Below the pieces are notes generated by a model. It was not told the DNA's origin, made no database searches, and saw nothing but the letters and a program-made list of their open reading frames with translations. A stretch of 64,000 nt of DNA from Bradyrhizobium lupini. Its GTDB lineage: Bacteria; Pseudomonadota; Alphaproteobacteria; Rhizobiales; Xanthobacteraceae. Below, one piece after another: positions 23,590-26,199 of the stretch. Within the stretch, counting starts at the first letter, position 1. Every line of letters begins with the position of its first letter. The stretch spans positions 7,645,001 to 7,709,000 of the forward strand of contig NZ_CP162553.1 of assembly GCF_040939785.1 (NCBI RefSeq). The letters are read 5' to 3'. The position numbers and the translations under genes are program-made.

Positions 23590-23831
23590 ATGAACATCCG
23601 TTCCGCGAAAGTCGATGAGCTTGCCCAGCGCCTCGCCCGCCTGACGGGGAAGATATCGAGACGGCGCTCGAACGCGCCATCGAGGAGCGCTTGTCTCGCG
23701 TGGCATCGCCGGCGGTCGATAGGAGGGCCGCCCTGACGTCGTTCTTCGAGCGAACCGCTGGCTTGCCCGTTCTCGATTCTCGGCCTGCAGACGAAATCCT
23801 CGGCTATGACCGTTTCGGGCTGCCGTCCTGA
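23590..23831 (+). CDS. vapB: VapB-type antitoxin, frameshifted
   Basis: Short antitoxin of the type MNIRSAKVDELAQRLARLTG, a frame break, then EDIETALERAIEERLSRV, followed by a toxin-binding tail ending DEILGYDRFGLPS. This matches VapB antitoxins of the Rv0623/PSK type. A G-run at 23646-23649 has four G where five restore the frame. The TGA overlaps the vapC ATG (TGATG), as expected for a translationally coupled toxin-antitoxin pair. A promoter-like TGCTATACTGCTCATACG lies 30-50 bp upstream. Confidence 0.8.
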
Positions 23832-24226
23832 TGGTGCTGGATACGTCTGCGATCGTCGCGACCGTCACCAACGAGCCAGATGGGCAGCGCTATCGGAAAG
23901 CCATGCTGGATGCTGCCAGCCTGTCGATGTCAGCAGTAGCAATCCTGGAAACCAAGATCGTTCTCTCTGCTCGCTTCGGAGCATCGGCCGTGAAGTTCTT
24001 CGACGAATTGCTGGAGACTGCCGGGATTGTCGTAGTGCCGTTCGACGCAGACATGGCGAAAGGCGCGTTCGAGGCATTTCAACGCTTCGGCACGGGCGGG
24101 GGACATCCGGCGCAGCTCAACATCGTCGATTGTGCGGTCTACGCTTTGGCGAAAGCGCGTTCGCAACCGCTGCTCTTCAAGGGAGCCGACTTTGCTAAGA
24201 CAGACATTCTCCCCGCGTTGACCTGA
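23831..24226 (+). CDS. vapC: VapC-type PIN-domain ribonuclease toxin
   Basis: 131-residue PIN-domain toxin. Acidic catalytic residues are visible at MVLDTSAIVA (Asp4), AILETKIVL (Glu), NIVDCAVYALA (Asp) and KGADFAKTDI (Asp). Such enzymes cleave tRNA or rRNA when not held by the cognate VapB. It starts by 1-nt overlap with the antitoxin stop. The pair lies between queA and asd. Confidence 0.9.
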   Translation: MVLDTSAIVATVTNEPDGQRYRKAMLDAASLSMSAVAILETKIVLSARFGASAVKFFDELLETAGIVVVPFDADMAKGAFEAFQRFGTGGGHPAQLNIVDCAVYALAKARSQPLLFKGADFAKTDILPALT

Positions 24227-24339: not shown

Positions 24340-25365
24340 TTACGCCATCACCCGCTGTGGCAGGAGCTCCGCGATCTGCACCGCGTTGAGCGCAGCGCCC
24401 TTGAGCAGCTGGTCCGCCGCCACGAACATCGAGATCGAATGCCCGGAGGGGTCGCTGAAGTCCTTGCGGATGCGGCCGACCAGGACGTCGTCCTGGCCCG
24501 AGGCGTCGATCGGCATCGGGAAGTAGTTCCTGGCACGGTCGTCGACGACCTTGACGCCGCGCGCTCGTGCCATGATGGCGCGGACCTGGTCCTCGCTGAT
24601 CGGCTTCTCGCATTCGAAGGTGATGGCCTCGCAATGAGCCCGCAGCACCGGCACACGCACGCAGGTGACGCCGATCGCGATCTTGTCGTCCTCAAAGATC
24701 TTGCGGGTTTCGTTGATGACCTTGGTCTCTTCGTCGTTGTAGCCGGTGTCAGGGTCGATCGCCGTGTTGTGGTTGAAGAGGTTGAACGCGTAGGGATGCG
24801 GCATCACCTTCGGCGTATAAACCTGCCCGTTGAGGTTGGCGCGGGTGGACTCGACCAGCTCCTCCATCGCGGCAGCGCCGGCGCCGGAGGCCGCCTGGTA
24901 GGTCGAGATGATCACCCGCTTGATGCGGTTGCTCTGGTGGATCGGCCACAGCGGCACCAGCGCCGTGATGGCGGCGCAGTTCGGGTTGGCGATGATGCCC
25001 TTGTGGTCGCGGATGCGGTTCGCGTTGATCTCGGGGATCACCAGCGGCACGTTCGGGTCCATGCGGAAGGCGGAGGAGTTGTCGACGACGACGGCGCCGG
25101 CCTTGACCGCGATCGGCGCGAACTTCTTGGAGATGCTGCCGCCAGCGGAGAACAGGGCGATGTCAACGCCCTCGAAGGCGCGTTCGGTCAGCTCCTCGAT
25201 GATGACGTCTTGCCCATGGAACGACACCGTCTTGCCGGCCGAGCGGGCGCTCGCCAGCGCCTTGAGCTTGCCGACGCGAAAGCCGCGCTTGTCCATGGTG
25301 GCGATGAATTCGGCGCCCACCGCACCGGTGACGCCGACAATCGCGACGACGGGATCGTTACTCAC
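24340..25365 (-). CDS. asd: Aspartate-semialdehyde dehydrogenase
   Basis: NADPH-dependent reduction of aspartyl phosphate to aspartate semialdehyde, the branch point to Thr, Met, Lys and diaminopimelate. The NADP-binding IVGVTGAVGAEF opens the protein, the catalytic Cys is in IANPNCAAI, and STYQAASGAGAAAMEEL and RVPVLRAHCEAI follow. I choose the GTG at 25365 because GGAGG lies 5 nt upstream; the ATG 12 nt earlier contains that site and has none of its own. From memory the sequence looks closer to plant/cyanobacterial Asd than to the usual rhizobial Asd (which begins MGYKVAVVGATGNVG), so this may be a second copy. It is preceded by a leader peptide and attenuator. Confidence 0.95.
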   Translation of the reverse strand: MSNDPVVAIVGVTGAVGAEFIATMDKRGFRVGKLKALASARSAGKTVSFHGQDVIIEELTERAFEGVDIALFSAGGSISKKFAPIAVKAGAVVVDNSSAFRMDPNVPLVIPEINANRIRDHKGIIANPNCAAITALVPLWPIHQSNRIKRVIISTYQAASGAGAAAMEELVESTRANLNGQVYTPKVMPHPYAFNLFNHNTAIDPDTGYNDEETKVINETRKIFEDDKIAIGVTCVRVPVLRAHCEAITFECEKPISEDQVRAIMARARGVKVVDDRARNYFPMPIDASGQDDVLVGRIRKDFSDPSGHSISMFVAADQLLKGAALNAVQIAELLPQRVMA

Positions 25366-25397
25366 TTTGTCCTCCATTGAATTGCGATCTAAACAAC

Positions 25398-25430
25398 AAA
25401 AAAGCCCCGGACCATCATGGGCGGGGCTTC
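25398..25430 (-). terminator. Attenuator terminator upstream of asd
   Basis: On the minus strand AAGCCCCG (25429-25422) pairs with CGGGGCTT (25409-25402) around a 12-nt loop, followed by the U-rich tail TTTTTTGTTGTTT. It starts 30 nt after the stop codon of the Thr-rich leader ORF and ends about 33 nt before the asd GTG. A competing pairing is possible between GCCCCG of its left arm and CGGGGC at 25487-25482, inside the leader ORF. Confidence 0.8.
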
Positions 25431-25459
25431 GGTAGAGTGGATTGCGTTCTAGTCGACGA

Positions 25460-25531
25460 CTACACGCGCACGCCTCCCCGGGCCCCGAAGGCCGTGGTGG
25501 TTTTAGTCGTGCGTTTGGTGGTCGCGAACAT
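25460..25531 (-). CDS. Threonine-rich leader peptide (attenuation of asd)
   Basis: 23-codon ORF beginning MFATTKRTTKTTTAFGA and ending GVRV before a TAG. Seven of residues 4-13 are Thr (codons ACC, ACG and ACT), plus two Lys. It has no Shine-Dalgarno sequence, but its ATG lies 8 nt after a -10 box, where transcription should start, so the mRNA may be leaderless, as I recall for trpL of rhizobia. Ribosome stalling at Thr codons for lack of charged tRNA-Thr would favour antitermination and asd expression. Inferred from layout; not seen in a database. Confidence 0.7.
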   Translation of the reverse strand: MFATTKRTTKTTTAFGARGGVRV

Positions 25532-25539
25532 GGCGGGAG

Positions 25540-25568
25540 CTTATGCGGGAGAGTCCTGCCCCCGTCAA
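25540..25568 (-). promoter_or_regulatory. Predicted promoter of the asd leader
   Basis: On the minus strand TTGACG (25568-25563), a 17-nt spacer, and CATAAG (25545-25540). The predicted start point falls at or next to the A of the leader-peptide ATG at 25531. Confidence 0.65.
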
Positions 25569-25596: not shown

Positions 25597-26199
25597 CTAT
25601 TTGGTCCGGGCGCCCGGCGGTTCGAGGATGACCTCCTTGAGGTTGTCGCCACTGATGACGACGATCGCGAAATTCAGCCGGCCGCGTTCGCGCACCAGTC
25701 CGCCGCTGATGGCTTTGCCGGAGGCCGCGCGCTCGGCGACGTGGACGGCATCCGCAAGTCGGTGCTTGATGGCACCGAGCGCTGCGAGATTGCTGCGATC
25801 GTCGAGGTCGAGCTCGGCGAGAGGGAGGGCGGCTTCCCCGCCGACGAGCTCGCCGGTCGCGGCATTGATGGTGTGGCGCCAGATCCGGTCGTTGTGCAGG
25901 GTCTTCACCCGGTAGACCGGCACGCCTGAGGCTCCGTCGAAACTCACATCCGCCGTGGTGGCACCGACGTGGCGGGCTTCCGCAATCGCCATGGCCTGGT
26001 TGATCGAGATCGACGAGCTGCGGAAGCGCTCGATCTCGCGGCTGACCGCTTGGCGGTCGACCTCGGCGTCACCATCTGTGTCGCTGTGAAGGGTGGTCGG
26101 CGTGCCCGTGCTCACGATCGCCCGCGCCGGCGCTGCGAGGAGGAGTGCGGACAGGGCGATCGCGAGCAGTCCCGAGATCCGTCGTTTGGCCGTCGTCAT
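25597..26199 (-). CDS. Secreted PepSY-domain protein
   Basis: 200 residues. The ATG at 26199 gives a signal peptide (MTTAKRRISGLLAIALSALLLAAPARA). The mature part has a PepSY module: INQAMAIAEARHVGATTADVSF, then VYRVKTL, and TINAATGELVGGEA. PepSY modules inhibit peptidases or sense ligands in the periplasm. The promoter lies about 170 bp upstream and contains the same operator core as the patatin promoter, so it is probably repressed by the adjacent TetR protein. Confidence 0.85.
   Translation of the reverse strand: MTTAKRRISGLLAIALSALLLAAPARAIVSTGTPTTLHSDTDGDAEVDRQAVSREIERFRSSSISINQAMAIAEARHVGATTADVSFDGASGVPVYRVKTLHNDRIWRHTINAATGELVGGEAALPLAELDLDDRSNLAALGAIKHRLADAVHVAERAASGKAISGGLVRERGRLNFAIVVISGDNLKEVILEPPGARTK

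Follow-up and report, generated by a model that had tools for sequence, protein, structure and literature searches.

A conserved threonine- and lysine-rich leader, probably a leaderless transcription attenuator, precedes a second aspartate-semialdehyde dehydrogenase gene in Bradyrhizobium

An asd gene in the analyzed stretch of Bradyrhizobium lupini DNA (64,000 nucleotides, positions 7,645,001 to 7,709,000 of contig NZ_CP162553.1; the window) is preceded by a short, threonine-rich open reading frame and a terminator-like hairpin. A preliminary description interpreted the two as a leader peptide and an attenuator by which the supply of threonine controls asd. The question is whether this arrangement is a genuine attenuator, and if so, which gene it would control and which amino acids it would sense.

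When the minus strand was read again, every described part was recovered (Table 1). The two promoter boxes are 17 nt apart, and the second is followed after 8 nt by the leader ATG (25531). The leader ORF encodes MFATTKRTTKTTTAFGARGGVRV, ends with a stop codon at 25462-25460 and has seven threonine codons (4, 5, 8, 9, 11, 12 and 13) and two lysine codons among its 23 codons. The hairpin GAAGCCCCG...CGGGGCTTTTTT is followed by a T-run (25403-25398), and the terminator is present in the minimum-energy fold of the full leader RNA when the whole RNA is free. The GTG is taken as the start of asd, and an in-frame ATG at 25377 is a possible alternative. A generic consensus scan listed neither the leader promoter nor the terminator, the latter having 12 nt between its two perfect arms against a loop limit of 8 in the scan; both calls rest on conservation and folding instead. 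When 4227 Rfam families were searched, the gathering cut-offs were passed only by a tRNA elsewhere and by nothing at the leader, where the best sub-threshold match was on the opposite strand (18.1 bits versus 70 needed). The neighbors of the gene are a PIN-domain protein on the other strand (window 23831-24226, plus) and, upstream, a PepSY-domain protein (25597-26199, minus), and the gene looks monocistronic.

Table 1 Promoter, leader, predicted RNA strands, terminator and downstream gene in the window
Feature	Position	Strand	Basis
-35 box, TTGACG	25563..25568	-	TTGAC 15-17 nt from -10 box in 107/112 upstream regions
-10 box, CATAAG	25540..25545	-	CATAAG or listed variant in 112/112
Leader ORF, 23 codons, Thr/Lys-rich, probably leaderless	25460..25531	-	Kept in 112/112
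Strand 1 (predicted)	25489..25493	-	Small hairpin with 25485-25481, directly 3' of the Thr/Lys run; minimum-energy fold, first 24-36 nt blocked
Strand 2 (predicted), GGGGC-C-CGG, antiterminator 5' arm within leader ORF	25478..25486	-	Folding
Strand 3, CCGAAGCCCC, its GCCCC doubling as terminator left arm	25423..25432	-	Near-invariant in alignment A1
Intrinsic terminator, GC-rich hairpin and six T	25398..25430	-	Sequence, folding, conservation
asd Shine-Dalgarno, GGAGG	25371..25375	-	SD-like site in 111/112
asd2, GTG start, second aspartate-semialdehyde dehydrogenase	24340..25365	-	PF01118 and PF02774, PDB relatives

The downstream protein exceeded the Pfam cut-offs for both semialdehyde dehydrogenase domains, and its PDB relatives are aspartate-semialdehyde dehydrogenases (E-values down to 8e-95). 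The downstream gene was thus correctly named as an asd, but judged by its sequence it is a second paralogue (asd2) and not the housekeeping gene, to which it is about 45% identical (G000:C1:3883187-3884176 in the window's genome). A close relative of asd2 (best E-value below 1e-100) was found in 138 of the 146 genomes of the genus that were searched. Two of the eight others (G097 and G137) are incomplete and one (G091) had no match whatever, and housekeeping asd is present in seven of the eight, once in two pieces. When the family was searched, 115 of 119 genomes gave a match, most other genera only with a different asd (about 45% identical); the closest asd2 proteins, among the best 120 listed, carry the organism name Bradyrhizobium. 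Further asd2 copies were seen in five genomes (L079, L081, L082, L084 and, in the window's own genome, L116 at G000:C1:2732350-2733359). These five have a leader and a terminator of the same kind, are the only exceptions to the TTGAC spacing in Table 1, and have a different sequence 5' of the -10 box. In the window's genome, the extra copy is broken, being split between two frames.

For comparison, 112 asd2 upstream regions from 108 genomes were used, including the five extra copies; 107 genomes belong to the genus, as part of the 138 with asd2, and one (L033) to another genus of the family. The leader was found in all 112, and no region had lost the threonine run or the ORF while keeping asd, the lowest number of threonines being three (L125). 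The threonine block, described as being far from chance in the window alone, is by this comparison more than chance. A -10-like box, for which variants were picked after the sequences had been seen, lies 8 nt before the leader ATG in 100 regions and 7-11 nt before it in the rest. An SD-like site (GGAG, GAGG or AGGA) within 16 nt upstream of the leader ATG was found in 0/112, and the described lack of a ribosome-binding site is thus general. Because of this lack and the nearly constant position of the -10 box, a leaderless start of the leader ORF is likely. Beyond about 10 nt on the 5' side of the -35 box, the share of the most frequent base drops to 38-75%. The exact terminator GGGGCTTTT is present in 110 of the 112 regions (L078 and L084 have GGGGCC before the T-run), and the spacing is conserved. 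In six genomes (L010, L016, L028, L063, L130 and L134), a palindromic repeat (GCATGATCCGGAAAAG...CCGGTTTTCCGA...AGATCATGC) lies in the asd2 5' UTR between terminator and start; it stretches the distance from leader stop to GTG to about 144-151 nt, with leader and terminator intact.

A covariance model of the element was built from 64 sequences. It gave 117-148 bits in 35 of 36 genomes of the genus, partly by construction since many of the searched genomes had supplied model sequences. There were 36 strong matches, two of them in the window's genome where the second precedes the broken copy, and all 36 are located 24-91 nt before an asd2 copy. The remaining genome (G032) has no asd2 and only a 30-bit match, and all remaining listed matches were at or below 34.7 bits. 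In 24 genomes of other families, no match was found at E <= 0.001. The element is real and is conserved wherever asd2 was read in the genus.

The preliminary description had also proposed that GCCCCG of the left terminator arm can pair instead with CGGGGC inside the leader ORF. Folding reproduced this competition once the 5' end was made unavailable. With 42-45 nt blocked at the start of the window RNA, which we take as a ribosome with about codon 11 in the A site (the footprint is our estimate), the antiterminator GGGGC..CGG / CCG..GCCCC had a probability of 0.91-0.96. At other blocking positions (0-72, steps of 3 nt) it was at most 0.06, and it was gone once at least 48 nt were blocked. For nascent RNA without the right terminator arm, the antiterminator exceeded 0.5 in 64/64 sequences with 21-36 nt blocked and in 0/64 with at least 57 nt blocked; with nothing blocked it exceeded 0.5 in 28/64, and the nascent window RNA also favored it. 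In the whole RNA at equilibrium, it exceeded 0.5 in at most 32/64 at any position, and kinetics must therefore be invoked. When the segment from nt 40 to the terminator (Thr/Lys run to terminator) was shuffled in 10 of the 64 sequences, 60 times each, the observed nascent value was matched by 0-6 of 60 shuffles, and the observed whole-RNA value with 42 nt blocked by 0-7 of 60, this whole-RNA value being only 0.00-0.25 in six of the ten.

Strand 2 paired with strand 3 more strongly than in 95% of shuffles for no more than 39 of the 64 sequences. The pairing is present in 85% of alignment cells, with no pair changed on both sides (shuffles scored at least as high as observed in 500/500). However, column counting is a weak test of covariation here, because strand 3 is near-invariant and the register of strand 2 shifts between clades. 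The consensus fold of the alignment preferred the terminator together with small local hairpins in the strand 2 region, one pair of which is changed on both sides in 11/64 sequences. In the absence of a stalled ribosome, strand 2 could be kept in these local hairpins. Since they are preferred in the consensus, support for the switch comes from thermodynamics and placement and not from compensatory change.

We consider it likely that the element is a leaderless, ribosome-mediated transcription attenuator of asd2. RNA polymerase would start at, or a few bases from, the leader ATG, and a ribosome would begin there without an SD sequence. When charged Thr-tRNA (and, we think, Lys-tRNA) is scarce, the ribosome would stall at codons 5-13 and cover strand 1, and strand 2 would be free to pair with CCG..GCCCC, so that no terminator forms and asd2 is transcribed. 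When threonine and lysine are plentiful, the ribosome would reach the stop codon and cover strand 2, and the GCCCC/GGGGC terminator with its six U would stop transcription. Extra aspartate-semialdehyde dehydrogenase would thus be made on demand, with the housekeeping asd, which has no leader peptide, being made independently. The observations in the preliminary description are confirmed, and its reading of them as an attenuator is supported.

The choice of threonine as the signal covers only half of the leader, because lysine is conserved together with it. When the codon columns of the 105 leaders with exactly 23 codons were counted, Thr5 (103), Lys6 (103), Thr8 (100), Lys10 (102) and Thr11 (105) were the most constant; threonine at positions 3, 4, 9 and 12 was less so (67-79), as was Thr13 (57). 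Threonine at position 8 is kept while its codon varies (ACG 61, ACC 39). The 112 leaders contain three to nine threonines and one to four lysines each, and the clades typically have either seven or eight threonines with two lysines, or four to six threonines with three lysines; the L125 leader has three of each. Lysine is an end product of the pathway through asd. At positions 2-13 of 73 distinct leaders (for one of which, from L087, the start used was too far upstream), lysine is encoded by AAA 160 times and by AAG 20 times. In 22 likely genes of the window, these counts are 70 and 355, and in asd2 itself 0 and 17. AAA is thus the locally rare lysine codon, yet it is preferred in the leaders.

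Short ORFs with at least six Thr and Lys (at least three Thr) in 12 codons were also scanned for upstream of housekeeping-type asd genes. Outside the family but in the same order, 65 of 102 loci, in 18 of the 29 sampled families, have a Thr/Lys-rich leader, the loci not being a random sample since most were drawn from the genomes ranked highest by similarity among the 187 with a match outside the family. Some families were positive throughout (7/7, 7/7, 6/6, 6/6) and others negative throughout (0/7, 0/5, 0/5). In controls, such an ORF was found antisense at 1 in 134 loci and in 2 of 816 tiles elsewhere. In other orders, 3 of 36 loci were positive (40 of the best matches were taken, 4 of them unplaceable). 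These sporadic cases in other orders of the class are L251, L256 and L286. Among the other asd genes of the window's family, 1 of 25 (L034-L057 and L153) was positive. This locus, L053 of another genus, has the leader MATVTKKPATTPSTAKGGTTR and a TTGACA promoter-like box upstream. For the housekeeping asd of Bradyrhizobium, a Thr/Lys leader was found in 0/7 loci, and in 0/6 in genomes without a full asd2 match. Of 80 named loci, 38 passed the scan, four of them (L366, L369, L378 and L380) probably by chance; the positives include Sinorhizobium, Rhizobium, Agrobacterium, Mesorhizobium, Bosea, Kaistia and one uncultured Bartonella. Two Ancylobacter, one Rhodopseudomonas, three Methylobacterium, two Bartonella and one Bradyrhizobium (housekeeping asd) failed.

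The RNA downstream of these leaders differs from that of asd2. Of the 68 leader-bearing loci outside the family, 64 lack five consecutive T anywhere from leader to asd, and in no more than 22 did the best local helix between leader stop and asd rank within the top 5% of shuffles. In the consensus fold of 18 Rhizobiaceae-type loci (alignment A3: L315, L316, L318, L320, L323-L327, L329, L331-L333, L335-L337, L339, L346; 840-992), CUCU right after the leader stop pairs with AGAG near the asd SD. Of these four pairs, one has both of its bases changed in 7 sequences, and both-sided changes are also seen at some pairs elsewhere in the fold. The fold hints at a possible translational attenuator without a U-tract in the Rhizobiaceae-type asd leaders.

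Sensing of threonine alone is the alternative that survives best, and we regard it as possible though rather unlikely. In that case, the AAA codons would serve as an A-rich, unstructured 5' end that aids leaderless initiation and keeps the RNA open. The strong preference for AAA over AAG fits this explanation, as do the excess of threonine over lysine (50.8% vs 20.5% of codons 2-13) and the invariance of Thr11, which in our judgment has the most favorable position for the switch when the window RNA is folded. However, Lys6 and Lys10 are as well conserved as the best threonine positions, and lysine is made through asd by established biochemistry. In addition, when leaders of the order, which precede a different gene, were picked on threonine alone, 59 of 60 also contained lysine, and lysine made up 37% of non-threonine residues (3% in long ORFs, 250 codons or more, of any frame); these leaders use AAG as well (AAA 105, AAG 43). 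Sensing of both amino acids by the asd2 leader is thus favored but unproven. We lean, by a small degree, towards a wider reading in which the leader responds to two inputs: threonine and lysine are the end products of the two branches from aspartate semialdehyde, and if either ran short, the ribosome would stall and Asd would rise. The same two-amino-acid logic would act on housekeeping asd across much of the Hyphomicrobiales with a different, SD-proximal RNA architecture, and in Bradyrhizobium on a second asd, not orthologous to the first and preceded by a classical U-tract terminator, the housekeeping copy having lost its leader or never had one.

It is improbable that the element acts mainly in trans as an RNA or peptide, in the manner of rnTrpL/peTrpL of Sinorhizobium meliloti, with control of asd2 being secondary. 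The 3' part of the ORF is near-invariant in nucleotides (CGC at codon 22 in 105/105, GTG at codon 21 in 102, GGA at codon 19 in 104), as such a function would have it, and the account of the S. meliloti trp attenuator in PMC7298713 describes both a leaderless sRNA and a functional peptide. However, these invariant nucleotides fall in the predicted antiterminator region, the peptide residues other than threonine and lysine differ between clades, and the strong matches of the covariance model are all directly before asd2 copies. That the terminator is a site of ordinary, constitutive termination or of processing behind an accidental Thr/Lys run, for which the missing antiterminator covariation could be cited, is hardly credible given that leader and spacing are kept in 112/112, that the terminator is kept with a changed base before the T-run in only two, and that Thr/Lys-rich short ORFs are far more frequent upstream of asd in the order than in control tiles.

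A wider Thr/Lys regulon in the window's genome was also considered and is not supported. The model matched strongly there only at asd2 and its second copy, and no short sense ORFs (8-90 codons, at least six Thr and Lys in 12 codons) were seen near hom, lysC, dapA and thrC candidates in the 7 of 14 loci that were scanned.

Among known systems, the thrL attenuator of thrABC in gammaproteobacteria has a threonine-rich leader peptide with threonine and isoleucine codons, an intrinsic terminator and a competing antiterminator; leaders of this type are named Thr_leader in Rfam. The asd2 element shares the threonine-rich leader ORF and the terminator, and a competing antiterminator is predicted for it. 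It differs in that threonine is combined with lysine and not isoleucine, that a single asd paralogue and not the thrABC operon follows, that the leader probably has no SD sequence, and that no Rfam family exceeded the cut-off at the locus. The leaderless trp attenuator trpL of S. meliloti (PMC7298713), as described there, resembles the predicted asd2 leader in its ORF at the RNA 5' end, its ribosome-dependent transcription attenuation and its rhizobial host, and differs in the amino acid sensed and the gene controlled. For B. japonicum, PMC4842269 gives 320 transcription starts located 0-10 nt before annotated start codons; the main texts of this start-site map and of a small-ORF paper (PMC5082802) contain neither 'asd' nor 'threonine'.

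The preliminary description knew of no such attenuation for asd in rhizobia. This holds for Bradyrhizobium, for which no paper was found; for Sinorhizobium, a leader of this kind has been suggested. The passage on S. meliloti SEP5 in PMC10117765 reports its translation (Ribo-seq, Western blot), six threonine and three lysine codons, and a position within the 5' UTR of a gene called 'aspartate dehydrogenase'; it takes SEP5 as a possible leader peptide whose conservation is limited to Sinorhizobium. The asd leaders of S. americanum and S. psoraleae end in SKTTAKTTTKTV before the stop codon, with six threonines and three lysines. Because they share its composition, we infer that SEP5 is an asd leader, and the gene behind it is most likely asd. 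By that passage, a Thr/Lys leader at Sinorhizobium asd has already been suggested in print. This passage was the only directly relevant text found when the full-text literature was searched for attenuation of asd by threonine and lysine, whether in Bradyrhizobium or across the order. SEP5 and the asd2 leader are alike in having threonine and lysine codons before a probable asd. The SEP5 type, as compared in S. americanum and S. psoraleae, differs in its housekeeping-type asd, its leader sequence and the absence of a visible U-tract terminator.

If the proposed mechanism is true, asd, which encodes the branch-point enzyme for lysine, threonine and methionine, would join the attenuation-controlled genes of alphaproteobacteria, and its leader would be a natural test of one leader that reads two amino acids. 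The same sensing logic would then be found on two non-orthologous genes with two RNA architectures, which would hint at why Bradyrhizobium retains a second asd. SEP5 of S. meliloti, thought to be specific to its genus, would fall into a pattern that is spread through the order.
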